Below, one piece after another: positions 4,805 through 57,347 of a stretch of DNA of 64,000 nt (within the stretch, counting starts at the first letter, position 1; each line of letters opens with the position of its first letter). Source of the stretch: Hydractinia symbiolongicarpus (lineage: Eukaryota; Cnidaria; Hydrozoa; Anthoathecata; Hydractiniidae); assembly GCF_029227915.1 (NCBI RefSeq), contig NC_079886.1, positions 18,016,501-18,080,500 of the forward strand, in the 5' to 3' direction. The translations under genes were made by a program, and so were the position numbers. Under the pieces are notes generated by a model. It had not been told where the DNA came from. It worked only from the letters and a program-made list of their open reading frames with translations, and ran no database searches.

Positions 4805-6496
4805 TTTTTACATTTTCACAAAAAACAACACATACACAGAAGAGTTATTTAAATGGGATGGTGCAACTCTAACAACTGCTTTATCGTCACATCTTAGCCA
4901 TGAGCCACAGCTGCGATCTTTAATGAATAGTGACCTGCTCCTAGGGTGCCCGAATGATTAATAGTGGCAGCTAACGAATATTTGTTGTTAAATGATATGT
5001 CATCTGTTGGCTGAGAGCAAAGCACTGCGGGCAAAGCCACCTGTCATTTCCAGACAAATTTTTGGGCTGCACAAAACAATTAATTGAACCTGTAAAGCTG
5101 TTTGAGATAGGGAGTGGCACAATAGGCATACTTTCCTCCCTGCTAGTTGATAAGAAGCATGCATTACATGACGTCGTAGTGGTTATAATGTTGGTGGCAG
5201 ATATGGCAAATATTTGCGATAACCGAAGGGCCTGTTATTCCACCCAAGACAAGAAGCAGTATTTCTGGCACGTCCTGCTGGGCATTAATGTTGAATGGGG
5301 TCTTCCTAATGCTCGACGTCTCACGCTGCAAGCCTCTTAAGAAGGAAGGGTCAACAACTGTGGAAGACTGGGACAGCATGGACATACTCAGCATTACAGA
5401 CTTCAATAGAGGAGAAAAAAGAGAAGATTCCGAAGCACAATGTAACCAAAATGATGGGATTTCAGTTAATGCTTGCAGGATGGAATTGGCGTAACAGGTG
5501 TTTCCTTTATTTATTAATCCTGCGTGAATTACTTTACTTTGGGTAGGTGGGTCTGGGCCTGCTTTAATAGGTGTATTGGGTTTGGTGACTGTTGGTTGCT
5601 TGGCCTTTGGCATTAGAGGAGTGGGTATGGAGTAGTTGGTTGAAATAGGGATGTTGCTGTGTTCATTCCATACCTTTGTATTTCTAACGACCCAAATACA
5701 GAAAGAAGCTTTCATGCACATGTCACCAAGTTGACGAGCAGCTTAAAAAGTTTTTCTGCGATCTATATTTGGACATCTTAGTTAAAAGCCAAGTTTCCAT
5801 AGCTCTATCACAATCACATGCTTCCTGTTGTTGGAATAGATAACGAGATCTGGCCTAAGTGATGTTAAAGCAATATGCCCAGGGAAAACAAATCCGTCCT
5901 TTAAGTCAGACAAAATCATCCAATCGCAGGCGATATGTAAAAGACCTGTAAGTTTAGACTTTTTACCACGAGTGTGGGCACCAGCTTTAACAAACTTAAT
6001 GCTATTTAGCTGTTTTACAGGTGACGTGATTCACTTACAAAAAGTAGTGAGCAACTCCACAAGTTCTTTTAAAACAGAATCGTGGCGGAATGTAAATCTA
6101 ACCTGCGCAAGAGCAGTTTTGCAGGCACAAAGGATGTGAGCTGTGGTGTACAATTTTTTTTGGTGCACAATTTTTTTTCGTAACTCTACCTAATTGTTCT
6201 TCTTCTTCTATTTCCTTTGCAGTGTTTGATATTAGCTCCCTGTAAGAGTAACATTGTCGGGAAGCAGGCATTTGGTGCGAGCCCATCATTGCCCTCACTT
6301 TTACTTTTGCCTCTGCCGTCGTAACTGTGTCAGTTATACTCCACTTTCCGGCCTTTAATGTTGGTGGTGTCGCTGATACTAGGGGGTCCTTTGAATCCCT
6401 AAGCAGTAAGTGTCCGCTTATTTTAGAAGATTTAAGAATGGACGTTAGACTTTTTATTGGCGAAGAACATATTGAGCAGGCCGAGTATGATCAGAA
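4805..6496 (-). mobile_element. Non-LTR retrotransposon copy A (RLE + USP type), 5'-truncated
   Basis: In minus-strand order the copy holds a post-RT region (SGHLLLRDSKDP, then LKAGKWS), a zinc-knuckle region reduced by an internal deletion (TTAHILCACKTAL, then FRHDSVL), the restriction-like endonuclease (SLRPDLVIYSNN, then VIVIEL), and a full-length ubiquitin-specific protease domain running to about 4810. A short deletion removes the TCPCEE segment just after the catalytic Glu of the endonuclease. Its upstream end at about 6496 directly abuts the 3' terminus of copy B in the same orientation. Several frame changes show it is dead. The order RT - Zn - RLE is that of NeSL/R2-group elements; the USP tail is the unusual part. 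Confidence 0.8.
4810..5721 (-). pseudogene. USP-type deubiquitinase domain of non-LTR copy A
   Basis: All diagnostic boxes of a ubiquitin-specific protease (peptidase C19) are visible in order. These are the Cys box (LINKGNTCYANSILQAL, near 5510), the QQD box (NINAQQDVPEIL, near 5280), a zinc-ribbon pair (SCNAC near 5165 and WLCPQC near 5035), the His box (HSGTLGAGHYS, near 4945), and the closing SWLRCDDKAVV and VYVLFF (near 4890-4810). Frame changes occur near 5200 and 4920, so the reading frame is broken, but the catalytic Cys and His codons are still present. The domain lies directly downstream of the endonuclease of the same element, separated by a Pro/Lys-rich linker (5700-5560). USPs normally remove ubiquitin from proteins; the role in a retroelement is inference (protein stabilisation or polyprotein cleavage). 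Confidence 0.8.
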
Positions 6497-6834
6497 AATA
6501 ATTTACAAAGAGGTGGCAAGCTACCGCAATGATGAACTCAACCTGTTAGGTCTTTGGAAATAAGCTAGAGGTTGTACTCCTCTAGAGAAAATGCCTCTAA
6601 AAGCACAATTCTCCTTGTTAATTAAAAAGGACACAACACATTTGAAAAGATGAACAGAACTTTAACCAAGGGCAGGTAAGTTTCAACCCATATTTCTGAA
6701 CCTAAGTACCCTGGATGTCTAGCTGGGTCACCTCGAAGAGGTCCGCGGACGGTCATCAGGAGAAACTAGACACCCCTATCTTCCTAAGGCAAACTTTGAC
6801 CATTTTCTGTTCAACTGTGCTATTCCTTGTTTTT

Positions 6835-6965
6835 AACTCAGGTAATAAGTGGAGTCGTTACTCTCCAAAGACAAGATCATGTGTAATCAAACTCCCCTGC
6901 TAATACTTTTTTTTTTAACTGGGGTAACAAGTGGAGTCGTCACTCTCCAAAGACAAGATTTAGTG
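6835..6965 (-). repeat. 3'-UTR tandem repeat of the USP retrotransposon (copy B)
   Basis: Two units of about 42 bp read on the plus strand as GGTAATAAGTGGAGTCGT followed by ACTCTCCAAAGACAAGA, separated by an A/T-rich spacer. The same unit occurs three times in copy F and three times, inverted, in copy D. Confidence 0.8.
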
Positions 6966-7079
6966 TAGTCAAGCCCCCTTGCTGACTCATTCCAGTTAAA
7001 ATATTCTTATCTCAGCTCTTCTAAAAAGAAAACATATGACTCGTGACTGTTAATAAGGCGGTCATCACAGAAAATTACT

Positions 7080-7690
7080 GCTCTATCGTTGCAATGTATT
7101 CACCTGTGTTCCATTTGGTCGAAGGCTATGGTTGTGTAGTGACCATTATTTAAGTTTTCGCAATGGTAGATAATAGCCCTTAATTAAACATTTTTACTAA
7201 ATTTCACTTCTCCATCTACGGTAAAAGGTATGGAAAGGGTACCAGGGTAAGCAGTAATACGAGAGGCAATTTTCTATAAACAGCCAAACTTTGAAGAACA
7301 CCTACAAATGCTTCGCCTAACTTTGAGGTTGTTTTGCTGCCAGAAATGGCTTCTTTAACTTCTGGAAGGTTAGAAAAACATTGTAAGATTGAGTTTGCAT
7401 AACATGTGTTTCCCAAGTTTTTTAGACCGCTATTCCTAAAATCAGGGTAAGATGGCAATGCAACTGTTGTTTTGGAAGACCTTGTAGCAAGTTTTTTGGG
7501 TTTTTTGATTTTACAAGATTTTGTGTGACTTGGGGAAGATTTCTCAGGGGTTTTTGATTTCTTACATTCCATATTTGTAACAGAAGAAACTTCAGGAATG
7601 ATTGGGGCCTTTTCAGGCTCAACCCAAGTGGTAGAATTTCGAGACATCCAGATGTAAAAAGAAGCACTCATGGAGGTAAAAGTTAGGGAT
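7080..7690 (-). pseudogene. USP-type deubiquitinase domain of copy B, internally deleted
   Basis: A Lys/Ser/Pro-rich linker (7660-7450) leads into the USP Cys box (GLKNLGNTCYANSIL, near 7400-7445). The frame runs to 7216. Downstream the His box (GHYTTIAF, near 7145) and the terminal box (IHCNDRAV, near 7090) appear in other frames. The middle of the domain, including the QQD box and the zinc ribbon, has been lost by an internal deletion near 7215-7160. The same domain order at 5721-4810 and 23150-23790 supports the call. Confidence 0.7.
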
Positions 7691-9110
7691 TTTAATAGGG
7701 AACGTAAAGGCTTGTTAGGGAAGCCAAGGCGACGAAAACTGGTCCTTACTGATTCTGAACAGAAACCCCTTGCACCCACCTCAATGGCAAAGAGATTTTT
7801 TTTCATAGCATAACAAAGTGAAGAATATTTGTTAAGCTTTCGTTTGTGCCACACGTCTGGGCGTAGTTGTGTTATGGCAAGATATGGTGGAACAACTAAA
7901 ACGGAATCTAAATCTGACAGTAAAGTCCAATCGGAAGCAAGGTGAAGAAGGCCAGGACTTTGTATGCCTCTTCTTAGATGGTGATTGACCGGCCAGAATG
8001 AAATTAATTTTGATGCACTTGGAAACCTTGAGAGGTTCATATGATAATAAAAACTCTTTTAATGCCTTAACGAATACTATTAAAACCGAGTCGTGACGGT
8101 ATGTGTATCTACCCTGCGTAAGGGAGTTCCTACAGGCACCCAATATGTGAGAGACATTTGAAGATGGTTTCTTGCACAGAATGCAACTTTTGTCTTTCTC
8201 AATTCCCCATATCGCAAGATTGGTTGGAGAGGGAAGGGTGTCGTAGGTTGCCCCTATACAAAAGGAAGTTAGACATTGTGGCAGTGAAAGAATTGTTCTC
8301 CAAGATAAATCGTTTTTTACATAAGAGCACCATTTTGTCCAATTGCCTTGCAAATGCAACTGTACAGCTCTGGCATGGTAAATATCTTCTTCATTTTCTT
8401 CAATGATATTGGAAACAAGCTTTCGGTAAGCATAAGTGCCCTTTGGTGGTATATTTTTGTGGTCTAAGAGCCCTAAGCCAGCTCGACCAGTCTGATGCAA
8501 AGCTAAAATCCTTTTGAAATTGAGCTAACTATCCGCCGAAAGAACTGCCTCACTAACTTTACAATTTCCAGCTTTTAAATCTGGTACGCACTTAGACACA
8601 CAAGGTTCGACAGAATCTCTTAGTAACAGATATCCACTGATTTTGGCAGATTTGAGAACACATGCAAGACTTTTCAGGGGAAGAGAACAAGGCGATGTCG
8701 AGGAACATAAGGAAATGTTGGACATGAATGATGTAGTTTTAACCATTTCCTAATGAAAAAAGAAAATCTTTGCTCTAGTTTTGTGATAATTGATAGAGAA
8801 ACTTCATAAATTAATAATTGCCAGCGGATTCTTGGAATTAACAGATGGTGTAAAAACCAAACCTTATGGACCGCTTTATGAAAGGACCTGTCTATAGCTA
8901 TAAGTTTGTATTCAGCATCATTTAGAAATTCTTGTATTGCAGCAGAATCAGACAAGGATGAGTTAATGGTTCTGCCTAAAAACCTAATTGGATTAGAATG
9001 AATGGATGCTGCCAACTGTAAACGGTGAACTTTCGACGACTTTTCCCTTATCAATAACAAGCTGCGTGATTTTGAAGGCCTAAACGACATGCCTACCCAA
9101 TGAAGAGCTG
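7690..9110 (-). pseudogene. RT thumb - zinc finger - restriction-like endonuclease of copy B
   Basis: From 9090 downward the protein shows the RT thumb region typical of NeSL/R2-group elements in cnidarians. A CCHC-like knuckle follows (CILCKKPSSNVSHILGAC, near 8170), then GRYTYRHDSVL. After a frame change near 8040, endonuclease sequence follows: LLSDLDSVLVVPPYLA, then ITQLRPDV. The next motif WHKRKLNKYSS follows directly, whereas copies C, D and E carry about 20 extra residues between them including the catalytic ELTCPCEEN segment. That segment is deleted here, so the endonuclease must be inactive. The C-part (FAIEVGARGFCSESVR, RRLGFPNKPLRSLL) is preserved. Frameshifts near 8520-8700 and 8040 split the frame. 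Confidence 0.75.
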
Positions 9111-9337
9111 TTGTACACCTGTTTAATCAAACTCGTCCCCAGCGCCTTTTGTCTCTTTTTTTTTACTGAACGGCGAGACGAAAAGACACTGAAATCGTAG
9201 GCCGAAAATGGCCAAATTATGCGAAAAGATAATATAATGTATGCGTGACGTTCTGCATCGTCATATTATAAAGATGGTGCATTCAAGCGGGCTTCTTGTG
9301 TTCAGTCGGATTCAAGTTCAAGTAAAGTTAAGCGAAA

Positions 9338-10716
<1,379 letters not shown>

Positions 10717-12054: not shown

Positions 12055-12122
12055 GCCCTGTTGGTCTAATGGCTATGACACTCTTGCAAACGAGAGATCC
12101 AGGTTCGAATCCTGGACAGGGC
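12055..12122 (+). tRNA. tRNA-like sequence (probable pseudogene), anticodon unclear
   Basis: The acceptor stem GCCCTGT pairs perfectly with ACAGGGC. The T arm CCAGG-TTCGAAT-CCTGG is perfect, and box A (TGGTCTAATGG) and box B (GGTTCGAATCC) for RNA polymerase III are intact. The D arm has three pairs (GTC/GAC). The anticodon arm CTCTTGCAAACGAGAG folds only with a loop of four or six bases, and the whole is 68 nt instead of 71-73. A few bases are therefore missing around the anticodon or variable region, and no anticodon can be assigned safely. It could be a tRNA pseudogene or a tRNA-derived SINE head; I see no clear SINE body downstream. Confidence 0.6.
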
Positions 12123-12274
12123 ATGAAAAACAATTATCTTGCACCTACAACAACCAGGTTGTATTATATTGGCACATAATTCTGCTAATATGATTCACTG
12201 TATATTGACCTTATATAAATGTAATACCTTACATTGAGTACATCTTTGAGTTGTAGGGGGAGAAAGTTTCTATT

Positions 12275-12599: not shown

Positions 12600-13372
12600 T
12601 TGACCAGTCAAGTCTAAAATTTAAATTTTAGAGGTTTTGCTCCTCTAAAGAATATGCTCATATAAAGAAACACAATTCTTCCTTTTTCCAAGGAGATAAT
12701 GGGCACAAAAATTGAACAAACAAACAGACATAGAGAGTAGGACAGGACTTCTGTAAAGGGTACAAGGGTTTCGACTCATATTCCTGAACCAAGGTACACA
12801 AAATGTCTATGCTGAGTCACCTCAAAAGAGCTCTGCTAACAGTCTTCAGCAGGAACTAGACAATTCTTTCATCCATAACTTTTAATCTGTCCTACTCTGT
12901 ACAATCTTGTGTGACTGGGGTAAGAAGTGAAGTCGTCACTCTCCAAAGATAAGACCAGTGTAGGCAAACTCCCTTGCTGACATAATTTTTATTTTTTTTT
13001 TGTTTTTTTTTTGACTGGGGTAATAAGTGGAGTCGTCACTCTCCAAAGATAGGACCTGGTGCAGTCAAACCTCCTTGCTGGCGTAATTTTTTTGTTTTTC
13101 GCTTTTATTTTGACTGGGGTAATAAGTGGAGTCGTCACTCTCCAAAGACAAGACAAGAAAAAAAAAATTATAAAAAAATAAAATAAAAAAAATAAGAATA
13201 GTCAAACCCCCTTGTCATAAGCCGGAAGTTGTGGTGCTGACTGCAATCTACATAAGCTTTTCAAGGAAAAGGATGTAAGGTTGTACACCATTAAGCAAGC
13301 TTTGTTTGCAAGTGGTCTACTGCTCTGTCGTTGCAATGAAACCACTTACAATGCACTTGGTTATAAGAAATT
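12600..13372 (-). mobile_element. Non-LTR retrotransposon copy F: 3' end only
   Basis: In minus order it starts with the last USP codons (matching the HCNDRAV box, near 13335). Three copies of the ~42-bp 3'-UTR unit follow (13155-12907), then a segment shared with copies B and D (GACTCAGC, CTCTTTTGAGG, near 12810-12850), and a terminal stem-loop (AGAGGAGCAAAACCTCT, near 12640-12612). Everything upstream of the USP end is absent, consistent with strong 5' truncation. Confidence 0.75.
12905..13160 (-). repeat. 3'-UTR tandem repeat of the USP retrotransposon (copy F)
   Basis: Three units read on the plus strand as GACTGGGGTAATAAGTGGAG followed by TCGTCACTCTCCAAAGA, separated by variable T-rich or A-rich spacers. 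Confidence 0.85.
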
Positions 13373-13833: not shown

Positions 13834-16791
13834 TCAAGTGTTCATTTCGTAATTTTTTTGCCGCCCTAGTGGTCGTCTCTCGCGTGTAGGTCTTGTGGGG
13901 GGTGTGTGCGAATGAGTTTGGGATGATGCAGCGGGATCAATTACGGGCTCCTGGACGTCACCATTATTCTCGACACCAGTGTTAATGGGTGTGGAGTTCT
14001 TTTCTGCCAACAATTGATTTGGTAAGGGGGCTGAACTGGTTGGTTCGTCAGGTGTAGTGAGAACATCAGGTGATATGGTGGCAGTGAAAAGGGATGTTGG
14101 CGGAGAAGCAGTGGTCGTTTCAGCCAGAGCTTGTGGAGTCGTGAAGTGATGTACTGGAATATCAACAACGGAAGCTGGGCCAACTCTTCGCAAATGTTTT
14201 CAGTTGCAAAGGGTCAGTCCGTTGGAACAGAATACCTTGATAACATACTGGTTGTTGTCAGAGGTCTGAATGACTGTCCCAGTTTTGATCCATCGGGTGG
14301 GGAATTGACCAGTCTGGTCATGTACTCTGCATGTGTAGCCTAGAGCAAGTGGGTCGATCTGATGTGATTTGCAGGTAAGCGTCTCCATTTGCTTCACAGA
14401 GCGAGTCAGTAATGCCCCCTCCCTAGGTCTCCACAGGTGTCTCCAGGATGGTTTTACGGAGGCACAGTCAAATATCTGCATTGGTGGCTTGACTGGTAAT
14501 ACATCTTGAATAGTGCGGGCAGACACAATTTCAGCAGGTGATAGCTTTGATGTCGGGTCTGGATTATTCCGAAATTGAAGAATGGCTCTGGTGAAGCTTT
14601 CAGAGTCTATCTCCCCATCCGATGAGACGTTATTCCGAAGTCATTTCATTGTCTTTACTGCTACCTCGGCACTGCTGAACACCCCATCTACGGATGAAAT
14701 CTGTTGTTTCTCTTGCCACAAACTCGGATCCTCGCTGCCTAATTCGTAAGGGACACCCAATAGTGAAGAACTTGGTGTCTTCGAGTGCCCAGGCGATTAC
14801 GAGTGCCTCCCCCTCGATTGGGGCGTAACGTTGCTCTGACGGTCGAAGAAAACATGGACCCGCCAAGGTGATTTTCCAGCCACCCTCACAGCAGTTGGGA
14901 GTGTCAGAAGCGCAGCCAATATCCGATCCCAGTCCTCGATTAATCAGGGCTCACATGTTTTTCATTGGGGCTCGGATATACGTACTCCTTCCTAACATTT
15001 TGTCGGTCAGCTTTCCATAATGCGATACTTGATTTACAAGTCCGAACCAAGCACGCACATCTGCAATCTGTTTTGGCATAGGGAATTGTGTTATAGAGTC
15101 TGGGCGGTGATGTAAAACCCCGCAAATTTAATGTCCTTCTGAGAGAATTGGAATTTTGTTCGGCTTAAAACAATTCCCTCTTTTCCCATCAGCTCCCGGT
15201 AGTCAAGCATTTTCCACCAATGCTCTCTTATGGTTCATCCCACAATGTAGTATCGCCCACACATTTGGTTTTGCTAGGGACATCCGCAATGACACGATCA
15301 TATCAACGTAAGTATCCGTCGCCACTCGCTAGATAGCCCTGTGCAGCCGCACGGTATCGATAGCGACCAAATTCTGTGATAAATGTTAGAAGATGTCTAT
15401 CACCTTTTGCAACCGAAACAGAATGATAACCGTTCCAGGTTTCTGTTACTGATAGATTTGTACCTGGTGGAATCATCCGTGCCTTCTGGAAGGGTGGGAC
15501 GGTGTGATGGGTGTCTCGGAGGCAGTGCTTGTTGAGGGATTGGAAATGAACCACACGTCATGGACCCCCGTCAGCTTTTCTTATCCAAATTGAAGTGACA
15601 CCAAGTGAAAGGCGTGTTTGATCCAACTTTCTCGATCACTCCAAGCCTCACATCTTCATCTAATTGTCGTTTGACTGCCTCGCGCCAGTGGAGTGGTATT
15701 GGGGCAGGGGTGTGGACAGCTATTGGTGGAGCACCTGGATCTATATGAATTCTGATTTGTGGACCAGACATCATTGGTAGAGGCTGGTGGGTACACTTAT
15801 TGAAGTTTAATGACGCGAATCTGTCAAACAACCACTGCTTCATTTTCTCGGTGTTCTCCTTGATTGCTTTGAAGGGTACAGTTGTTGGGCGAACCAGTTG
15901 TGGTTGCCTCCTTTGTCAGTCGCATGGAGGTGTTACGCCTCTTTGGTGATTGGTGGCTGAGTTAACTGTGGATCGAGCTGACGCACCAATGCTTGGGAAA
16001 TCTGGATTGATCATTTGTAGATTTTCCATAGAGTTTTTGGTATCATATGAACATCTTAAGGTTCCCAAGTGCAACAAAATTAATTTCATTCCGGCCGGTC
16101 AATCACCATTTAAGAAGAGGCATACAATGTGTGGAGGCCTTTCTTCACCTTGCTTCCGATTGGAAAATACTGTCAGATTTAGATTCTGTTTTAGTTGTTC
16201 CACCATACATTGCAATAACACAAATACGCCCAGACGTGTTTTAAATATCCAGTTCTTCCAAAACTGTAATTATGGTAGAACTGACTTGTCCATGTGAAGA
16301 GAACACGGAATATTGGCACAAACGAAAGCTTAACAAATATTCTTCACTTTGTTATGCTATGAAAAACAATGGATGGATCGTGCATTTCTTTGCCATTGAG
16401 GTGGGTGCAAGGGGTTTCTGTTCAGAATCAGTAAGGACCTGTTTTCGTCGCCTTGGTTTCCCTAACAAGCCTTTACGCTCCCTATTAAATTGTTTCCTAA
16501 TTTAATTACGTACTTCACCATTTCTTCAGTGTAATGGGTGGCCAATTGGGTGTTACGAATATCCGTACCTCTTTTGAAGAGGTCCCACTTCTTATGGAAT
16601 GTGTTCCGCTCCTCCTCAGATGTCTCTTTCCGAATGATGGGTCTGTCAATCTTTGGAGGTCTTAGCTTGACTGCTGCTCCAGCTGGTAATGTTGCATGTG
16701 TGTGACTTATCGCATGCAGGTTGAGTTGAGCCGCTGCCAAAACTGACCGTGTATCGTCAGTCGAGTAACCACATCCCGCCAGGGGGCGCAC
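13834..16791 (-). pseudogene. Gypsy pol relic (RT, RNase H, C-terminal integrase tail)
   Basis: Minus-strand fragments follow the order of Gypsy pol. At 16791-16462 there is a pre-RT segment. At 15843-15571 is the RT N-part (PLHWREAVKRQLDEDVRLGVIE). At 15554-15303 is the RT core continuation (FITEFGRYRYRAAAQGYL). At 15240-15130 is the RT C-part with several stops. At 14866-14630 is RNase H (SEQRYAPIEGEALVIAWAL), ending in a stub of integrase-like sequence. At 14526-14200 and 14193-13834 is the C-terminal tail ending in a Pro/Thr-rich region and RPTRERRPLGR, typical of Gypsy pol ends. The RT YxDD motif is not preserved in one frame. No gag was recognised. Confidence 0.75.
16036..16497 (+). mobile_element. 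Non-LTR retrotransposon copy C: internal RLE fragment inside the Gypsy element
   Basis: Sequence from about 16036 to 16497 is close to the endonuclease part of copy B. It shows LLSDLDSVLVV (wording close to copy B), ITQIRPDV, then after a frame change VELTCPCEENTEYWHKRKL, FAIEVGARGFCSESVR and RRLGFPNKPLRSLL. Neither the 5' part (RT) nor the USP, 3' UTR or stem-loop is present, so this is a captured internal piece rather than a normal 5'-truncated insertion. Gypsy coding sequence of the opposite strand flanks it on both sides. Confidence 0.8.
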
Positions 16792-22470: not shown

Positions 22471-23184
22471 ATATGCAACGTGCTGACGAGATTTTGAATT
22501 TTATGTTTTAAAATAAGACGCTTATTAAATAAAATCAAGGACACCACAATATAGTTTTATCTTCTCTCTTTAACTGAACAATTCTTCACCTGGCCTCTCA
22601 TTGCAGATTATTGCCAGACTTAGATTCAACCTTATAGTACCACCTTATCTTGCAGTAACTCAACTTCGTGTGGACATACTTTTAACTTCTGCCATAACCT
22701 AAACTGTAATTACTCTTGAATTAACTTGCCCATGCGAAGAGAGCATGGAAACTTGCATGGAGGTTAATAAATAATCGTCACTTTGTTCCGTCATGAGATC
22801 AAACAATAATTGGTCTATGCATTTTTTTGCTGTTGAAGTATGAGCTAGGGGTTTTGTTCTGAAACAGTTAGAATCTTCCTCCGTTGCTTCGGCTTTTCTA
22901 ACATGGCTTTGCGTTCCACTCTTAAATCTCTTAGTGAGTCATCTATGCGATCGTCGTTTTACATTTGGCTTTCTGGAGATTCTTTGTCTTGGATTCATCC
23001 TGGTAGGGATCCACAACATACGGCTCAATTGACACCAACTATTTCAAATAAATTATCTTAAGTCACATAGTAAAGCAACTTCTACCAGTAGCTTTAAGGA
23101 CACGAATCCCCAGGGCGTAAAAAGGAGCTTCACCACCTTGCATGCACAAGAATCACTAAGCAGCAACAGCGGATTGCTTAGTTT

Positions 23185-23790
23185 GGGCAACACTGTTACA
23201 TTAATTTCATTTTGCAACATTTTTATGTCTTAGCCCCAGTCGCCGCAGCCATCTCTGCAAATAATTCTAATATCCTCCAAGATACCAGTGAACCCTTTTT
23301 CATTTTTCTAAATGCATTGAAATGCCATGTTTCTAATGCAACGTGCGCTGTTTTTAATATGTTCACTCAGCAAAATGCCCTAGAGATTCTTGAGTATCTC
23401 ATACCAGAGTTGTCGTTAGCTTTTCCTTTTTTGGTAAATTATTTAACACTCGTGTGAAAATCCGTACTACTTGCAACGCTTGCAATAATATTAGCACCTC
23501 TGAGCAAGTAAGTCAATTTCTTCAGCTGCCCATGACATCGACTGTACAATCTTCGCTATATAACGTTTTGGAGAGCGAAGAATTATCAGGCGTTACTGCC
23601 ATCCACACTGCAACAGTTGAAAAAGAGGTCGCAGAGTGCAGTTCACTTTTGATTCTGCAATTAAAACGCTTTGCCTATAACAAAGGTCTTGTGCTCTAGA
23701 ATTTGAACAATAGCTGTTACACTACTGTTGCTTATACCCAAGTTCATGGTAAGTGGTTTCATTGCAACGACAGAGCAGTGGTCCCTTGCT
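23185..23790 (+). pseudogene. USP-type deubiquitinase domain of copy D
   Basis: It contains the Cys box with a frame change inside it (near 23190), a long frame from 23212 with the QQD box, a second frame from 23454 with the zinc-ribbon half and the LQLKRF box characteristic of peptidase C19, and a stop followed by the terminal CNDRAV box. The His box position reads SCYTT where copy B has GHYTT, so the catalytic His is lost here. Confidence 0.7.
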
Positions 23791-23864
23791 AAAAAAGATG
23801 GCTAAATGGTGTACAACCTTTCTTCCTTTTCCTTGAAGAGCTTAGGTCTTATTCTAATTTTTTT

Positions 23865-24065
23865 TGTAGTCTTGTCTTTGGAAAGTGACGACTCCACTTA
23901 TTACCCCAGTCAAATTAAAAGAGAAAAACGTAACGACTCCACTTATTACCCCAGTCGAGAGAAAACCAAAAACAAAAACAAAATAAAAATTATGTCAGCA
24001 AGGGGGGGTTGACTGCACTGGTCTTATCTTTGGAGAGTGACGACTCACTTTTTACCCAAGTCAAG
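23865..24065 (+). repeat. 3'-UTR tandem repeat of the USP retrotransposon (copy D)
   Basis: Three imperfect units read as CTTTGGAAAGTGACGACTCC followed by ACTTATTACCCCAGTC, inverted relative to copies B and F as expected from the opposite orientation. Confidence 0.85.
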
Positions 24066-24135
24066 AGTAGGACAAATAAAAAGTTATGGATGAAAAGAAT
24101 GTCTAGTTCCTGCTGAACACTTTCGCAGACCTCTT

Positions 24136-27888: not shown

Positions 27889-28900
27889 ATGGCTACAAGC
27901 AGAAGTTTGAAATCGGCAAGAGATGCTCTTGTTCTCTGTTATGCTTCAAGTTTACTCGATGATATAGAATTTGCAGTTCTGTATGATATGAACGAATCAA
28001 GAGAAATCTTTCCGTACTGGAAATTTCAAGAATTTGATTTGGATACGTTAGACGAGGCAGAATGCCACACAGAATTGCGATTCTCATCACAACATATATA
28101 CGAACTTGCTAGATTACTAGGAATTCCAGCTAGGATAGTGACCCCGCAGAGAATAACATGTAGTGGAATATAAGCGCTATGCATCATGCTAAAACGATTA
28201 GCAACCCATGCAGATATAGTGATATGGTACCTTTTTTGGAAGAGATCAAACTGAGATATGCATAATATTCAATTATGTTCTCAACTTTCTGTATAATAAT
28301 CATCATCATAGATTAGAATCATGGAACCAGTGGTTTTTACAACCAAGAATGTTACAGCTTTATGCCCAGACCATCCATGACAAAGGTGCTCCCTTGCATA
28401 ACTGTTTTGGTTTTATAGATGGCACAGTTATACATATATGCCGACCTAAATTGAACCAAAGAGTTGTATACAATGGACATAAAAGGTTGCATGCGCTCAA
28501 ATTTCAAAGTATAGCCCTTCCTAATGGTCTCATTGGAAACTTGGCTGGCCCGTTTGAGGGAAGGAGACACGATAGTACAATGCTATATGAATCAAGTCTT
28601 CTTCAAAACCTTCAGAGAGTAGCATTCCACAATGGACAACCGCTATGTGTTTATGGAGACCCAGCTTATCCCTTGAACGTTCATTTGCAATGTCCTTTTC
28701 AAACAGCAAATCTAACTCTAGATCAACAAATGTATAACAAAGCCATGAGCAAAGTGAGGATAAGTGTTGAATGGCTTTTCGGAGATGTACGAAATTATTT
28801 CAAATTTGTAGATTATAAAAAGGGCTTGAAGCTTGGACTCTCGCCAATTGCAGAATGCACATACATGCTTATATGGAAATATTGTGTCAGAATATTTTGA
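27889..28900 (+). pseudogene. Harbinger transposase (DDE_Tnp_4)
   Basis: The likely start is ATG 27889 (MATSRSLKSARDAL), inside a frame open from 27784. The N-part (FDLDTLDEAECHTELRF, then IYELARLLGIPARI) is typical of Harbinger transposases. A TAA stop at about 28171 and a frame change separate it from the catalytic part (28349-28900): first Asp in CFGFIDGTVIHICRP, second Asp in CVYGDPAYPL, and Glu in VRISVEWLFGD. PFEGRRHDSTML lies between the first two. The C-terminal end is close to the family's usual one. One stop and at least one frameshift make it inactive, but the DDE residues remain. Confidence 0.88.
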
Positions 28901-34354: not shown

Positions 34355-35478
34355 ATGGATATCGCAAATGCATATCCTTCAATTCCTCACCGTCTTATCT
34401 TCTTTGCTCTTCAGCGGTACAGTGTTCCACCACCTTGGATTGCTTTTATTAGAAACTACTACATTGGTATCTACAGTAAATCATTTTCTGAATACGCACC
34501 AAGTTCTTGGCATAAACACATGCGAGGCATATTTGCTATATTTAGTGGACACTTGCTCCTAAGGGATTCGAAGGATCCATTGGTTTCAGTAGGCTTGCCA
34601 ATATTAAAGGCGGGTAAATGGAGTGTATTGGGCACAGTTAGGACGGCTGAAGCTGAAATGACGGTTAAATCCATAATAGGTTCACCTCAACATGGTAAAA
34701 GTGGCCTAGGTATGCATCCCAACCCTAAAGTACCCACAGTCAAGGGATGTTACCCTTACAGAAGATTGGGAACAGAAACTGCTAGAGACATCGATACAGC
34801 AGACCATATAAGTAAAGCTATGCAGTTACAAGTGCAAGGGTACTGGACCAGATGGGAGAATTACATTAAAAACGATCTCTCCTGGAAATCCTTGCTGGGC
34901 ATGCCCCCAAACTTGCTTGCTTTTTGTTTAGGCTCTACCTACGATGTTCTCCCATCACCAAGTAATTTGAAGAGGTGGCGTTTGTGCACTGAAACCTCCT
35001 GTTTCTTATGCGGTAAGCAAGTGTGCACCACAGCCCACGTCTTAGGTGGTTGCAAAACTGCTCTTACACAGGGTCGGTTTACATTTCGCCACGATTCTGT
35101 TTTGCGTCTACTTTTAGAGCTTTTTACTGAGTTTACTACTTCTATCTCTTCCCCGGTAAAGCAACTAAACAACATCAATTCAAAGCATGTGCTCGTCCCC
35201 ATAGTAAAAAGTCTAATCCCATAGGTCTCTTACATCTCGCCTCCGATTGTTTGCTTCTTTCTGACTTAAAAGGTGGATTTGTTTTCCCTGGTCATATCGC
35301 AATAACATCGCTTAGACCAGATCTTGTCATGTACTCTAACAACAGTAAGCGTCTAATTTTAATAGAGCTTACCTGTCCATGTGAGGAAAATATGGAAATC
35401 TGGCATTCAAAGAAGCTTTCGAAGTATTCACCCTTAGTTAGTAATGTTTATAGAGGGTCTTTAGTTCAATTACCTTGA
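34355..35478 (+). pseudogene. RT/zinc-knuckle/RLE polyprotein fragment of copy E
   Basis: The first frame (34355-35224) carries RT motif A (DIANAYPSIPH), the region after the RT, the knuckle CFLCGKQVCTTAHVLGGC (near 34995-35055) and FTFRHDSVL. After a frame change near 35224, the RLE has the PD-(D/E)xK-like core SLRPDLVMYSNN, IELTCPCEENMEIWH and KKLSKYS. This is the best preserved RLE core in the window: the catalytic PD and ELT are both present. NeSL/R2-group elements use this enzyme to nick the target and prime reverse transcription. Confidence 0.8.
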
Positions 35479-37199: not shown

Positions 37200-38280
37200 A
37201 AACTGCTGTTCAAATTGCAAGTACAAAATCAAGCATCACTTCTACCAAAGAAAGATCAAATCAATGAGAGAATCAGGCGCTGTGATCAACTACAGTATAA
37301 TGGAGGCCGTTGCACTTGGAATCATTACAGTTAATGACAGAACTTTGCTTGCCGCTAATGGTGGGCACATTAAACTTGGATTGAAATGGTGCGAGTCTAT
37401 CAAAAATAGGCTCAATTTTGTCAAAAGATAGGCTACCACGTTTAAGCCTTTAACAGCGCCAGATCTAATAAAGGAAGTCGGTCTTTCATTTTACAAAGAA
37501 ATCAATGAAATTGTTCATGCCCATAAAATTCCACCTGAATTGATCATCAACATCGACCAGACCCCTCTACCTTTTGTGATTATCATTAAATACACGCTCG
37601 AGATTAAAGGAACCTCTCGTGTTCCCGTTTTAGGCACCTCTGATTACCGTCAAATTACTGGCACGTTTGGGATAACAATGCCAGGTCATTTTTTACCGAT
37701 CCAGTTAATTTATGAAGGAAAGACCGATCGAAGTCAACCCAATTTCAAATTCCCTACAAAATTACACGTCACCCAAACTCCAAATCATTGGGCTAATGAG
37801 AATACAAGTATCGAAATGATGAAGAAGATTTTGATCCCCTACATTAAAGAAAAATGGAAAGAATTGAAGGCTCCGAAGAAACCGTGGCTATTGATTTGCG
37901 ATGTTTTCAAAGGGCAGTGGACAGACGCAGTCAAGAAAGTTGTGAAAGTATCAAATGGAAAGATGGTTTCTGTTCCAAACAATTGGACGAATTACTTCCA
38001 ACCGCTCAACCTCACCATGAACAAAAGTAGTAAGAATTTTTTGCGCGACGAAGCGCAAACCTGGTACTCGAACGAAATCGTGAAGCAAATGTCTAAAAGC
38101 AAGCGTACGATTCAAATTAAGGTAGATGTCCGACTCTCAGTCGTCAAACCATTACATGCTAAATGGATTACCAAATATTACGACTACGCCCGGAACCACC
38201 CAGAAATATTCATCAACGGCTGGAAAAAGTCTGGTGTTACCGAAAATCCTGAAAAGAAAATTAATTTAGACCCTTTTTAA
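37200..38280 (+). pseudogene. Pogo-like transposase 1 (DDE_1)
   Basis: Upstream codons from about 37200 (GGHIKLGLKWCESI, then RLNFVKR, a stop) lead into the catalytic region at 37540. The first Asp is in LIINIDQTPLPF, then ITGTFGITMPGHFLPIQ, and the second Asp is in LLICDVFKGQWTD. The expected third Asp reads Asn (FQPLNLTMNKS). It ends with HAKWITKYYDYARNHPE and NGWKKSGV, near the usual C-terminus. The N-terminal HTH region is not in frame. The missing third acidic residue and the upstream stop mean it is inactive. Confidence 0.8.
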
Positions 38281-45302: not shown

Positions 45303-48300
45303 TCTTCTTCTTCTTCTTCTTCTTCTTCTTCTTCTTCTTCTTCTTCTTCTTCTTCTTCTTCTTCTTCTTCTTCTTCTTCTTCTTCTTCTTCTATAGCTTC
45401 TTCTTCTTCTATAGCTTCTTCTTCTTCTATAGCTTCTTCTTCTTCTATAGCTTCTTCTTCTTCTATAGCTTCTTCTATAGCTTCTTCTATAGCTTCTTCT
45501 ATAGCTTCTTCTATAGCTTCTTCTATAGCTTCTTCTATAGCTTCTTCTATAGCTTCTTCTATAGCTTCTTCTATAGCTTCTTCTATAGCTTCTTCTATAG
45601 CTTCTTCTATAGCTTCTTCTATAGCTTCTTCTTCTCTTCGATAGCTTCTTCTTCTCTTCTATAGCTTCTTCTTCTCTTCGATAGCTTCTTCTTCTCTTCT
45701 ATAGCTTCTTCTATAGCTTCTTCTATAGCTTCTTCTATAGCTTCTTCTATAGCTTCTTCTATAGCTTCTTCTATAGCTTCTTCTATAGCTTCTTCTATAG
45801 CTTCTTCTATAGCTTCTTCTATAGCTTCTTCTATAGCTTCTTCTATAGCTTCTTCTATAGCTTCTTCTATAGCTTCTTCTATAGCTTCTTCTATAGCTTC
45901 TTCTATAGCTTCTTCTATAGCTTCTTCTATAGCTTCTTCTTCTCTTCGATAGCTTCTTCTTCTCTTCTATAGCTTCTTCTTCTCTTCGATAGCTTCTTCT
46001 TCTCTTCTATAGCTTCTTCTATAGCTTCTTCTATAGCTTCTTCTATAGCTTCTTCTATAGCTTCTTCTATAGCTTCTTCTATAGCTTCTTCTATAGCTTC
46101 TTCTATAGCTTCTTCTATAGCTTCTTCTATAGCTTCTTCTATAGCTTCTTCTATAGCTTCTTCTATAGCTTCTTCTATAGCTTCTTCTATAGCTTCTTCT
46201 ATAGCTTCTTCTATAGCTTCTTCTATAGCTTCTTCTATAGCTTCTTCTATAGCTTCTTCTATAGCTTCTTCTATAGCTTCTTCTTCTCTTCGATAGCTTT
46301 TTCTTCTCTTCTATAGCTTCTTCTTCTCTTCGATAGCTTCTTCTTCTCTTCTATAGCTTCTTCTTCTCTTCGATAGCTTCTTCTTCTCTTCTATAGCTTC
46401 TTCTATAGCTTCTTCTATAGCTTCTTCTATAGCTTCTTCTATAGCTTCTTCTATAGCTTCTTCTATAGCTTCTTCTATAGCTTCTTCTATAGCTTCTTCT
46501 ATAGCTTCTTCTATAGCTTCTTCTATAGCTTCTTCTATAGCTTCTTCTATAGCTTCTTCTATAGCTTCTTCTATAGCTTCTTCTATAGCTTCTTCTATAG
46601 CTTCTTCTATAGCTTCTTCTATAGCTTCTTCTATAGCTTCTTCTATAGCTTCTTCTATAGCTTCTTCTATAGCTTCTTCTATAGCTTCTTCTATAGCTTC
46701 TTCTATAGCTTCTTCTATAGCTTCTTCTATAGCTTCTTCTATAGCTTCTTCTATAGCTTCTTCTATAGCTTCTTCTATAGCTTCTTCTATAGCTTCTTCT
46801 ATAGCTTCTTCTATAGCTTCTTCTATAGCTTCTTCTATAGCTTCTTCTATAGCTTCTTCTATAGCTTCTTCTATAGCTTCTTCTATAGCTTCTTCTATAG
46901 CTTCTTCTATAGCTTCTTCTATAGCTTCTTCTATAGCTTCTTCTATAGCTTCTTCTATAGCTTCTTCTATAGCTTCTTCTATAGCTTCTTCTATAGCTTC
47001 TTCTATAGCTTCTTCTATAGCTTCTTCTATAGCTTCTTCTATAGCTTCTTCTATAGCTTCTTCTATAGCTTCTTCTATAGCTTCTTCTATAGCTTCTTCT
47101 ATAGCTTCTTCTATAGCTTCTTCTATAGCTTCTTCTATAGCTTCTTCTATAGCTTCTTCTATAGCTTCTTCTATAGCTTCTTCTATAGCTTCTTCTATAG
47201 CTTCTTCTATAGCTTCTTCTATAGCTTCTTCTATAGCTTCTTCTATAGCTTCTTCTATAGCTTCTTCTATAGCTTCTTCTATAGCTTCTTCGATAGCTTC
47301 TTCTTCTCTTCGATAGCTTCTTCTATAGCTTCTTCTATAGCTTCTTCTATAGCTTCTTCTATAGCTTCTTCTATAGCTTCTTCTATAGCTTCTTCTATAG
47401 CTTCTTCTATAGCTTCTTCTATAGCTTCTTCTATAGCTTCTTCTATAGCTTCTTCTATAGCTTCTTCTATAGCTTCTTCTATAGCTTCTTCTTCTCTTCG
47501 ATAGCTTCTTCTTCTCTTCTATAGCTTCTTCTTCTCTTCGATAGCTTCTTCTTCTCTTCTATAGCTTCTTCTATAGCTTCTTCTATAGCTTCTTCTATAG
47601 CTTCTTCTATAGCTTCTTCTATAGCTTCTTCTATAGCTTCTTCTATAGCTTCTTCTATAGCTTCTTCTATAGCTTCTTCTATAGCTTCTTCTATAGCTTC
47701 TTCTATAGCTTCTTCTATAGCTTCTTCTATAGCTTCTTCTATAGCTTCTTCTATAGCTTCTTCTATAGCTTCTTCTATAGCTTCTTCTATAGCTTCTTCT
47801 ATAGCTTCTTCTATAGCTTCTTCTATAGCTTCTTCTATAGCTTCTTCTATAGCTTCTTCTATAGCTTCTTCTTCTCTTCGATAGCTTCTTCTTCTCTTCT
47901 ATAGCTTCTTCTTCTCTTCGATAGCTTCTTCTTCTCTTCTATAGCTTCTTCTATAGCTTCTTCTATAGCTTCTTCTATAGCTTCTTCTATAGCTTCTTCT
48001 ATAGCTTCTTCTATAGCTTCTTCTATAGCTTCTTCTATAGCTTCTTCTATAGCTTCTTCTATAGCTTCTTCTATAGCTTCTTCTATAGCTTCTTCTATAG
48101 CTTCTTCTATAGCTTCTTCTATAGCTTCTTCTATAGCTTCTTCTATAGCTTCTTCTATAGCTTCTTCTATAGCTTCTTCTATAGCTTCTTCTATAGCTTC
48201 TTCTATAGCTTCTTCTATAGCTTCTTCTATAGCTTCTTCTATAGCTTCTTCTATAGCTTCTTCTATAGCTTCTTCTATAGCTTCTTCTATAGCTTCTTCT

Positions 48301-48974
48301 ATAGCTTCTTCTATAGCTTCTTCTATAGCTTCTTCTATAGCTTCTTCTATAGCTTCTTCTATAGCTTCTTCTATAGCTTCTTCTATAGCTTCTTCTATAG
48401 CTTCTTCTATAGCTTCTTCTATAGCTTCTTCTATAGCTTCTTCTATAGCTTCTTCTATAGCTTCTTCTATAGCTTCTTCTATAGCTTCTTCTATAGCTTC
48501 TTCTATAGCTTCTTCTATAGCTTCTTCTATAGCTTCTTCTATAGCTTCTTCTATAGCTTCTTCTATAGCTTCTTCTATAGCTTCTTCTATAGCTTCTTCT
48601 ATAGCTTCTTCTATAGCTTCTTCTATAGCTTCTTCTATAGCTTCTTCTATAGCTTCTTCTATAGCTTCTTCTATAGCTTCTTCTATAGCTTCTTCTATAG
48701 CTTCTTCTATAGCTTCTTCTATAGCTTCTTCTATAGCTTCTTCTATAGCTTCTTCTATAGCTTCTTCTATAGCTTCTTCTATAGCTTCTTCTATAGCTTC
48801 TTCTATAGCTTCTTCTATAGCTTCTTCTATAGCTTCTTCTATAGCTTCTTCTATAGCTTCTTCTATAGCTTCTTCTTCTCTTCTATAGCTTCTTCTTCTC
48901 TTCGATAGCTTCTTCTTCTCTTCGATAGCTTCTTCTTCTCTTCGATAGCTTCTTCTTCTCTTCGATAGCTTCTT
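45303..48974. repeat. 3.7-kb compound satellite: (TTC)n then (TTCTATAGCTTC)n with 20-bp variant blocks
   Basis: The array starts with about 88 bp of pure TTC repeats (45303-45390), grading into a 12-bp unit, TTCTATAGCTTC, repeated for most of 3.6 kb. Blocks of a ~20-bp variant (TTCTTCTCTTCGATAGC / TTCTTCTCTTCTATAGC) interrupt it near 45631, 45940, 46282, 47290, 47487, 47868 and 48872. Unit-to-unit identity is extremely high, which implies recent expansion. The 45276-45644 frame encodes only Ser then SerSerIleAla repeats. Confidence 0.97.
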
Positions 48975-52982: not shown

Positions 52983-55892
52983 TCATCGATTGATCCCCGA
53001 ATGAGCAGCACAGAGTTGACATTGGCAGTATATTTCAACGTGCCTGATAACAGATTTGAATTCTTTTAGATCTGTCACATTTTTGACACACGCAGGTAGG
53101 TAATTCCAGGCTAGGCTAGCGCGAAATTGAAAAGAATTCTGCCCGATACTGCTTTTAGAAGGTGGAATGACCAGTACAGTACCACGCCTAAGACTGTAAG
53201 TAGTCTCCTTCTTTCGAAAAATATCCCACATTAGTTCAGGGTTCAATCTATGAAGACACTTATAAACTTCAGTTACAAGGCTTTTCAGATTTCTATCATG
53301 GATAGGCATCATACTAGATATTTCCAGTATTTCTGTATAGGTTTTCTGCACCAGACCAGTTTTTGCACACAACGCTCTTTTATGGGTTGCCGAAATGAGA
53401 TTGTGTGCCTGTTTGCTGCAGAACATCCATACAAGGGGGCAATAATTGAAACAAGGTAAATTAAATGAGTTAAATAATAAATCAATCTGATCCTGTTTGA
53501 GAAAATTTCGTATCCTCAGGAGTGCTTTTGTCTTTGAGGAAGCACTTTTGCACATCCCTTTTACGTGAGGGTAAAATGAAAGTTTTTCATCCAGAGTAAT
53601 ACCTAGTAACTTAACTTGTTTTGATGGAGCAATAGAAGATGAGCCAATCTGAATGCTGATATTGCCAACATCAGCTCCCAGAATTATCATCTGAAACTTG
53701 CACGGATTTGCAACCATACCATTTGAGTTGAACCAGTTTACCACTTTGACTATGTCAGAGTGCAAACTTTCTAGAACAGCAGTAATGCTACTCTTACAAC
53801 TAAAAATGGTGTTGTCGTCGGCAAAGTTGCAGATATCACCCTCTAATAACAGGAACAACAAATCATTAATAAACACATTGAATAATATCGGTCCTAGGAC
53901 AGAGCCTTGAGGAACTCCTAACAAAATTTCTAACCACTCACTAACCGAGGAGCCTAACCTCACTCGATGTTTCCTGTTTGATAGATAGCTCAGTACAAGC
54001 TTTAATGTATTATATCCAACGCCATATGCCTCCAGTTTTGCAATTAAAAGACCAAAAGGGAGACAATCAAACGCTTTGGATAAATCCATCAAAACGGCAC
54101 CGACTTTTCCAGATTTTGAGAGACATTTTTGCCACTTTTGAAGCATGTTTAAAATAGCATACTAACAGTTGTAACTCTTTCGAAATCCACAAAGATATTT
54201 AGACAAAAAGGTGTTGAAGAATGGTAACAGTTGTTTGGCTAAAATTCCCTCAAAAACTTTGGAAACAGTTGGTAACAAACTGACAGGTCTATAATTTACC
54301 TTATCTGTGGAGCTACCCTTTTTATATAAAGGGATTATCTCTGCCAAAGATAAAAGACTAGGAAAAACAGAACTGTCAATAATAGAACTGTTAAAACATT
54401 TTGTAAGTACTGGAACACAATATCTAGCAGCTAAATTAACCATCTTCGTTGGAATCAAACCACTGACTTTCTTGCTATCATCTAACGCAAGAATTTCCTT
54501 AAACATGACATCCTCACAAATTGGAGACAACTCAAAAGTATGTGTCTGTTTCTTCGATTTAATGAAGAGGACACTAGGGTGAGACGCATACTTCTCAACT
54601 GCAGCAAGAACAGCATCACACTCGGATGAAAGAGCTTGAGGAATGTGTGGCATGTTAAGGTTGTCAGTAATTTTATTAAAATATTCATTAAATATGTTTG
54701 CAATATCACTATCATTGTTATATAATATATCTTTGTCAACAAGAGTAATTCTTTCTTTACCATATTTGGCTTTTTCATTAAACAAAGGGTTTTACCGATT
54801 TCCAAAAACCTTTACTCATATTACTTCGGCCAAAGTTGGAAAAGAAAGTTTTCTTGTCTTGCCTATTTATATTGACTACCAAGTTTCTTTGTTTTTAAAT
54901 GCTCTCACATTATCGTCTTTCCCGGAAGTGTTAGCTACCCTTTTAAGACGCGAACGTTTCATAATCGCCTTTCTGAGAGTTTTAGAGACATGGGGCCTAT
55001 TATTTGCCCTGAGAAACTTGGTTTTCAATGGAGCATGCCTATCTAATAAAGATGTAAATATACTATGAAAATCATCATAATTTGAGATATTGGTCATAGA
55101 CCGAGATATATCCTCTAAAAAATAAGTTTCATCAAAATTCTTATAGCACCGGTAACTAATTTTAAGTGGTGGTAGTTTGACATATTGTGTTTTAAGCATT
55201 GTATAAACTAAGGAATGATAATCACTCAACCCAGTTACAGCCGCTCCTGTATGCATGAGAGAGTGTTTCCTGTTGGAAAGAATCAAATCAATGCAAGATC
55301 CCGAAGAGGACTTCCAACAGGTTTTCTCCTTTATGTGATTATAAAGGGACTGAGTTAGTAAAAACTCCCCTAAATCAGTATGAGCTGGATCTAGGTTGAA
55401 ATCACCATTTATCAACATATTATCATAATTATAGAAATCTAGAGCTTCTGAAAGTTGAGACAAACAATATTTGGAGTTTTGACTTGGTGGTCTATAAATA
55501 CTGCATACTAACCATTTTTGTTTTCGTAGTCTTAATTCAACAATTGTAACTTGAATATTAGGGTTTAAGATAAACTGCTCAAGACGACGTGATGGGATGT
55601 CACTCTTAACAAAAGTTAACAATCTACCTCTATTCGCGCTGATGTCTAAACGATATGGATTCGAGTAACCATCCATTACAAATTGACTTGAAGGAAATGA
55701 ACTATCCAGCTTTGTTTCTGCAACTGTTATGACGTCAAAGAGATCACCCATAACACACTTGAAACTCTCAAACTTATTACGAATTGAGTTGATGTTTATA
55801 TAACCAATAAAAACATTTTTTGGTTGGTCTCGACGTAAACGATGCATTTTATCAATATCATTCTCCAAATCTGGTTGCTCAGGAGCCATCAA
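52983..55892 (-). pseudogene. LINE ORF2: endonuclease + reverse transcriptase
   Basis: The EN domain (55892-54876) shows YININSIRNKFESF, VAETKLDSSFP, SIYRPPSQN, LINGDFNLDP and TGLSDYHSLVYT. The RT domain (54785-52983) shows IIPLYKKGSSTDKVNYRPVS, LMDLSKAFDCLP (motif A), GVPQGSVLGPILFNVFIND (motif B), FADDNTIF (motif C, FADD) and LLGITLDEKLSF. Two frame changes lie in the EN-RT linker (near 54890 and 54795), and one TAG stop lies at about 54165 where Gln is usual. Otherwise it is well preserved. Confidence 0.87.
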
Positions 55893-55913
55893 CTCAGTGT
55901 TGCTCGAAGGATA

Positions 55914-57275: not shown

Positions 57276-57347
57276 CTTCCGTGCTTTTTCTCGCTTCGAA
57301 AAGTCAGAATATACTAAAAAAAATACAAAACAAGCCAAGAAAATCAA

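Follow-up and report, generated by a model that had tools for sequence, protein, structure and literature searches.

A window of 64,000 nucleotides from the hydrozoan Hydractinia symbiolongicarpus (contig C12 of the assembly, NC_079886.1, positions 18016501-18080500) holds six copies, A to F, of a retrotransposon without long terminal repeats (non-LTR) whose intact relatives encode a ubiquitin-specific protease (USP). The element almost certainly belongs to the R2 group of elements bearing a restriction-like endonuclease (RLE), is nearest to the HERO-like elements, and encodes a single protein composed of an N-terminal region, a reverse transcriptase (RT), a CCHC zinc knuckle, the RLE and a C-terminal USP. 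The window copies are fossils of this element, whose USP is predicted, with moderate confidence, to be a working deubiquitinase that would either shield the element or act at the nick.

Remnant copies in the window

The copies were mapped by translated motifs, self-comparison and tblastn with full-length relatives as queries, and every one of them is disrupted, whether by stop codons, frameshifts or deletions. Their parts, including open reading frames (ORFs), matches to the Pfam family UCH and repeats in the 3' untranslated region (UTR), are as follows.

4811..6487, minus strand: copy A, linker, RLE remnant and USP, broken (tblastn with full-length relatives; motifs)
5167..5742, minus strand: copy A, open frame from the RLE C-terminal helices through the linker to the USP Cys box and QQD box (ORF; UCH 40.3 bits)
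5022..5186, minus strand: copy A, USP zinc-ribbon Cys pairs (tblastn)
4811..5013, minus strand: copy A, C-terminal part of the USP, containing the His and Asp boxes (tblastn)
7019..9126, minus strand: copy B, RT C-terminal part, linker, zinc knuckle, RLE and USP, the middle deleted (tblastn)
8725..9126, minus strand: copy B, RT C-terminal part, equivalent to residues 559-704 of protein P0039 (tblastn)
7946..8722, minus strand: copy B, post-RT linker and CCHC zinc knuckle (tblastn; zf-RVT 23.9 bits, under the cut-off of 27.5)
7219..8058, minus strand: copy B, open frame from the RLE to the USP Cys box (ORF; UCH 33.0 bits)
7019..7237, minus strand: copy B, USP C-terminal part with GHY and CNDRAV (motifs; tblastn)
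6825..6990, minus strand: copy B 3' UTR, conserved unit of about 45 nt in tandem, downstream of the USP (repeat analysis)
13250..13370, minus strand: copy C, USP C-terminal remnant with CNDRAV (motifs; self-comparison)
12890..13165, minus strand: copy C 3' UTR, repeat unit of about 45 nt as in copy B (repeat analysis)
16068..16493, plus strand: copy E, RLE remnant, no USP found (tblastn)
22607..22912, plus strand: copy D, RLE remnant (tblastn)
23182..23840, plus strand: copy D, USP remnant from a degenerate Cys box to CNDRAV (UCH pieces; tblastn)
23858..24090, plus strand: copy D 3' UTR, repeat unit of about 45 nt as in copies B and C (repeat analysis)
34355..34537, plus strand: copy F, RT piece around motif A (tblastn)
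34541..35179, plus strand: copy F, post-RT linker and zinc knuckle (tblastn)
35182..35451, plus strand: copy F, RLE with RPDLV...IELTCPCEEN intact (motifs; tblastn)

The USP follows the RLE in three of the six copies (A, B and D) and USP remnants are seen in four (A, B, C and D); copies E and F have an RLE, and neither tblastn nor motifs found a USP in them within the window. An earlier note on this DNA had placed the USP after the RLE in copies A, B and D, and the translated motifs bear this out. Copy A carries RPDLV (5842-5856), GNTCYANSILQ (5473-5505), QQDVPEIL (5257-5280), HSGTLGAGHY (4927-4956) and CDDKAV (4874-4891) on the minus strand; copy B, also on the minus strand, has SHILGAC (8132-8152), GNTCYANSILQ (7381-7413), GHYTTIAF (7121-7144) and CNDRAV (7076-7093); copy D, on the plus strand, has ELTCP (22718-22732, within LELTCPCEE), LQLKRF (23655-23672) and CNDRAV (23763-23780). 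The USP match lies well above chance level in copies A and B, since their UCH scores (40.3 bits, E 3.5e-10, and 33.0 bits, E 6.3e-8) exceed the cut-off of 23.9 bits, while copy D yields two pieces of 19.1 and 15.7 bits, under that cut-off. A single open frame joins the end of the RLE to the USP Cys box both in copy A (ORF 5742-5167, 192 aa) and in copy B (ORF 8058-7219, 280 aa).

Two further details of the earlier note fared less well. The composite motif RPDLV...IELTCPCEEN, which it had assigned to the USP-bearing copies, is intact only in copy F (35314-35391), where no USP was found; copy A retains RPDLV and has lost ELTCPCEEN, and copy B has a deletion at that site. The RT that it had described upstream of RLE and USP survives as the C-terminal part in copy B, and tblastn also recovers the piece around motif A in copy F, but the RT motif with the catalytic DD is kept in none of the six copies. 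A structured element in the 3' UTR was considered and rejected: when six stretches containing the conserved repeat unit were folded, they did not outperform shuffled sequences, or did not do so clearly (z -1.2 to 1.1).

Intact copies and the wider protein family

The genome assembly searched (480.9 Mb, 76 contigs) contains at least 150 UCH matches, and the relatives at 86-90% identity, P0001-P0003, are proteins named as H. symbiolongicarpus. Fifteen UCH-match stretches were examined, picked for long open frames or tandem neighbours. An uninterrupted frame of 1426 aa with RT, RLE and USP is found at six loci (L010, L011, L013, L014, L015 and L016); L018, of the same family, has an open frame of 1423 aa, and L017 has one of 1422 aa and represents a second family, whose protein is 55% identical to that of the L010 family. 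Because L011, L013-L016 and L018 are 99.4-99.8% identical to L010 across the element, the L010 family is likely to have moved recently.

At eight loci of the L010 family (L010, L011, L013-L016, L018 and L022) a 3'-terminal piece of 112 to 2450 bp lies head to tail before the unit, with an offset of 5358-5387 bp (the unit is about 5.37 kb) and an identity of 98.2-100%. At L011 the 5'-truncated 3'-terminal piece is followed by two units, and no such piece is present at L020, L023 and L024 or at L017 of the second family. A tandem arrangement has also been described for the Tetraodon element Zebulon. The flanks differ among insertions (left n=7, right n=6), which speaks against a single fixed target, and among the six insertions with both ends the longest words common to both sides measure 0-7 nt, with no clear target-site duplication.

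The wider family comprises 250 proteins from three protein searches (33; then the best 120 of 148 matches; then 97 new among the best 120 of 160), with domains assigned by profiles built in this analysis. RT, RLE and USP occur together in 101 of the 250, in identical order in all 101; the rest include 79 proteins with RT and RLE and no USP, 53 with RLE and USP and no RT, and 15 with the USP only. RLE and USP share an ORF with the RT in six intact copies from this genome and in 101 homologues, which contradicts the first condition that the earlier note had set for its own refutation, a full-length consensus with RLE and USP never in one ORF. Chance juxtaposition of RLE and USP is rejected. Residue conservation was scored in the 68 proteins whose RT and USP are both complete; the other 33 of the 101 were set aside because of short domains. 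The Cys, His and Asp of the USP triad and the QQD Asp are present in 68/68, the four zinc cysteines in 66, 68, 68 and 68 of 68, and the RLE residues P, D, E, T, K and Y in 68/68; the C, C, H and C of the knuckle before the endonuclease are invariant in the 46 proteins of at least 1000 aa. A complete USP in a protein of at least 1340 aa is found in 51 members of the tree set.

That the USP is merely a host gene, or part of one, lying by chance next to the repeats has a negligible probability. NCBI does name two of the element proteins as hydrolases (P0002 'ubiquitin carboxyl-terminal hydrolase 35-like' and P0050 '51-like'), but the domains lie in a single open frame in the six intact copies and the 101 proteins, and the RLE is directly upstream of the USP at 30 of 40 sampled UCH matches. 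This sample took rows 1-20 and 61-80 of the at least 150 matches (14/20 top rows and 16/20 middle rows); it was counted by hand and takes in L036, L041, L047 and L050, where the automatic order test is misled by a split match or by an additional, weaker stretch of USP. Two loci, L025 and L026, have no RLE directly upstream and are probably host USP genes; the element USP profile gives them no more than 62 and 32 bits, whereas most element loci reach 221-358 bits. The remaining eight (L027, L034, L037, L044, L046, L048, L049 and L056) have an element-type USP and no RLE within 2 kb upstream, which would fit 5' truncation or deletion; at L046 RT sequence is still present. A recurrent host neighbour, which the earlier note had named as the reading that would undo its own, is therefore refuted for the family as a whole by the shared frames and the survey.

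The named sources of the homologues are Hydractinia, fish, lancelets and two 'Pseudomonadales' metagenome-assembled genome (MAG) proteins, the latter probably contamination. No relative was found among viral contigs, and the GTDB genome contigs gave one distant RT-RLE contig, L001 (4403 bp), titled Rhodospirillales MAG, in which no USP was seen and which is probably eukaryotic contamination under a bacterial name. The ends of the L001 contig overlap in the way expected of a circular or tandem assembly.

Inheritance and proposed role of the USP

A FastTree phylogeny of RT-RLE (145 proteins, an R2 pair and L001) places every USP inside one clade of 101 rows (support 99), 75 with and 26 without a USP, and none of the 44 rows outside it carries one, including the fish and lancelet HERO-like elements. 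Nested subclades of 15 and 4 rows have no USP in any of their 19 rows, 17 of which end 4-46 aa past the RLE match, with P0151 and P0193 ending at or within it; judging by the ends of the protein records, they appear to represent two losses of the USP. The other seven USP-less rows are singles among USP-bearing rows. Four of them end at most 2 aa from the RLE match, and the remaining three are P0160, P0194 and P0195; in P0195 a long repeat linker precedes the USP Cys box. In a second tree of 58 selected rows the USP clade has a support of 100 and three changes of state are counted. It seems that the USP was acquired in a single event, has retained an invariant triad and disappeared on two occasions; the R2 outgroup is distant, so that the root, and with it gain versus loss, is inferred. 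As a separate observation, two USP-less sister proteins carry a C-terminal NADAR domain (PF08719; P0235, residues 1208-1359, 109 bits, and P0240, residues 1168-1311, 92 bits), which is another enzyme at the same attachment place as the USP.

Repeated and independent capture of USPs by RLE elements, in place of one gain followed by inheritance, is improbable. It could draw on the three changes of state, as gains are not separable from losses without a sure root, and on giant-virus USPs, whose best match to the USP model (1.8e-25) is similar to that of cellular USPs (6.0e-26), so that the USP may come from either source. However, all 75 USP rows of the tree fall in one clade, and a topology that separates the USP rows from the USP-less ones nested among them is rejected by the approximately unbiased (AU) test (p-AU 0.0008, 58 rows, the group being defined after the tree was seen). 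Furthermore, pairwise distances across the 68 proteins correlate as well between RT and USP (0.81) as between RT and RLE (0.80), with 0.75 between RLE and USP.

It is proposed that the RT and RLE insert the element by target-primed reverse transcription in the manner of R2, and that the USP, predicted to be an active deubiquitinase, would act in cis or in trans to deubiquitinate the protein or ribonucleoprotein (RNP) of its own element, which would then evade ubiquitin-dependent turnover or host restriction. Such self-protection from ubiquitin-dependent control is the likeliest role and has about an even chance of being the right one; removal of ubiquitin from the RT protein was one of the two roles suggested in the earlier note. 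The USP itself would stand outside the core insertion chemistry, because sister elements and two nested lineages live without it. Comparison of the two intact families shows saturation at synonymous sites of the USP, RT and RLE (linker 2.02), and a nonsynonymous divergence (dN) of 0.23 for the RT, 0.36 for the RLE, 0.52 for the USP and 1.06 for the linker that joins the RLE to the USP; together with the invariant triad, these dN values indicate constraint on USP catalysis.

Action at the insertion site is the next likeliest role, with a lower probability: the USP would deubiquitinate histones, PCNA or repair factors there and thereby make the nick, the cDNA and second-strand synthesis tolerable. 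A linker of 29-313 aa (median 51) keeps the USP attached to the endonuclease, and a part in DNA repair is raised for transposon-borne Ulp1 and OTU domains in the Ginger paper (PMC2836005). On the other hand, the USP-less sister elements of fish and lancelets have the same RT and RLE.

Polyprotein processing, a role that the earlier note had put forward, in which the USP cuts itself off the RLE, is very unlikely. The linker between the two domains does vary in length and sequence. USPs cleave after the ubiquitin tail, and the linker offers no ubiquitin-like cleavage site, with [LIV][RK]GG in none of 101 proteins. L[RK]GG occurs anywhere in only one of the 101, as LKGG upstream of the RLE in P0119, and a weak ubiquitin-like match in L010 (APG12, 14.7 bits, cut-off 22.8) at residues 676-730, before the RLE, is taken as chance.

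Several points weigh against a working USP that protects its element. Within families the changes are too few to show selection on the USP by the ratio of nonsynonymous to synonymous rates, and the comparison of L017 with L019 (11 nonsynonymous and 3 synonymous changes in the USP, ratio 1.04) leans the opposite way. The USP is the fastest-evolving of the three domains (mean identity 0.29 versus 0.51 for the RT and 0.45 for the RLE), the apparent losses imply that it is not always retained, and the USP-less sister sample consists of the best 120 of 160 matches. The choice between self-protection and target-site action is made by inference. It is somewhat more likely than not that an old and broad clade of long interspersed nuclear elements (LINEs) has inherited a catalytically active USP within its retrotransposition protein, with members recently mobile in Hydractinia, where the USP would either counter ubiquitin-based restriction by the host or edit ubiquitin at the insertion site. 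The fusion of a predicted deubiquitinase to the copying machinery suggests that the element exploits the protein tagging of its host in order to spread.

Relation to known elements and other features of the window

The RT is of the non-LTR type (RVT_1 59-69 bits in L010, L017 and P0039), and the best solved relatives of the P0039 RT in PDB are the R2 chains 9nl3 and 9nl2 and R2Tg 9dou (E 4e-28 to 4e-27). The knuckle agrees with the R2-group spacing CX2-3CX7-8HX4C, as given in PMC5678591. C-terminal to the RT lies a PD-(D/E)XK-type endonuclease, to which the R2 RLE aligns weakly (10 bits); in a viral fold list, searched with more than the RLE alone, a PD-(D/E)XK protein ranks 47th (E 0.0035). 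In 13 long proteins scanned with Pfam neither an APE-type endonuclease (endonuclease/exonuclease/phosphatase family) nor Ulp1 was matched. The USP has the USP fold, as the best 50 matches each of Foldseek and VIA-align 2 in PDB are all USP-type chains. It shares fold and catalytic motifs with the cellular USP2, USP35, USP36 and USP15, from which it differs in being only 18-29% identical in structural alignments.

Like the present element, R2 has the order RT, linker and RLE; R2 targets rDNA and is not known to carry a protease. The HERO clade of the R2 group (HEROTn of Tetraodon and others) likewise combines RT, CCHC knuckle and RLE in one protein, whereas the USP, C-terminal in the present element, is found in none of the 44 rows of the HERO-like group. 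The nearest named USP-less relatives, among the matches listed, are fish and Branchiostoma proteins, and the Tetraodon polyprotein Q7T1J8, which is likely to be a HERO element, is 37-40% identical to P0153 over RT-RLE. The RT groups with the fish and lancelet proteins against R2 only, in a tree without labelled HERO, NeSL, R4 or CRE sequences. HEROTn, HEROFr and HERODr have no fixed target according to PMC3636483, a trait in common with the Hydractinia element and its differing flanks.

NeSL and Utopia elements likewise combine an RLE with a cysteine protease related to the ubiquitin and SUMO systems, but theirs is Ulp1-like and N-terminal, as reported for nematode families in PMC4640811, whereas that of the present element is a C-terminal USP (C19) distributed over a broad clade. 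Among DNA transposons, Ginger1 elements can have a C-terminal OTU or Ulp1 domain, and a Trichomonas protein joins transposase_11 to a peptidase likewise of type C19 (both from PMC2836005); these resemble the present element as mobile-element proteins with an added deubiquitinase-type domain, but they are DNA transposases and not reverse transcriptases. No publication of a USP in a non-LTR element was found in a search made without Repbase, Dfam, bioRxiv and most subscription papers, in keeping with the earlier note's suggestion that the arrangement may be undescribed. Of the nearest precedents, Ulp1 in NeSL and Utopia and OTU, Ulp1 or C19 in DNA transposons, none is a USP in a reverse-transcribing element.

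Ubiquitin and SUMO proteases thus recur in unrelated mobile elements (Ulp1 in NeSL/Utopia, OTU and Ulp1 in Ginger1). The near-identical intact copies lie in the genome of a regenerating cnidarian. For annotation, the element proteins recorded as host 'USP35-like' and 'USP51-like' genes call for caution.

Elsewhere in the window there are DDE transposase frames on the plus strand at 1544-2491, 28223-28900 and 37432-38280 (PF13359, 115 and 85 bits; PF03184, 28 bits). A DEAD-box helicase remnant (9332-10716, plus strand, 60 bits), RecQ-like by eye, is followed by a (TA)77 repeat, and a tRNA match lies at 12055-12123 (plus strand, 51.9 bits). The 12-bp unit CTTCTTCTATAG is repeated in tandem in about 302 copies at 45457-48974. 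Another LINE, probably of the CR1/L2 type, occupies 52983-57347 on the minus strand, with an RT of 70 bits and an upstream ORF whose GDSL-esterase-like match (32.0 bits) falls just under the cut-off of 32.9.

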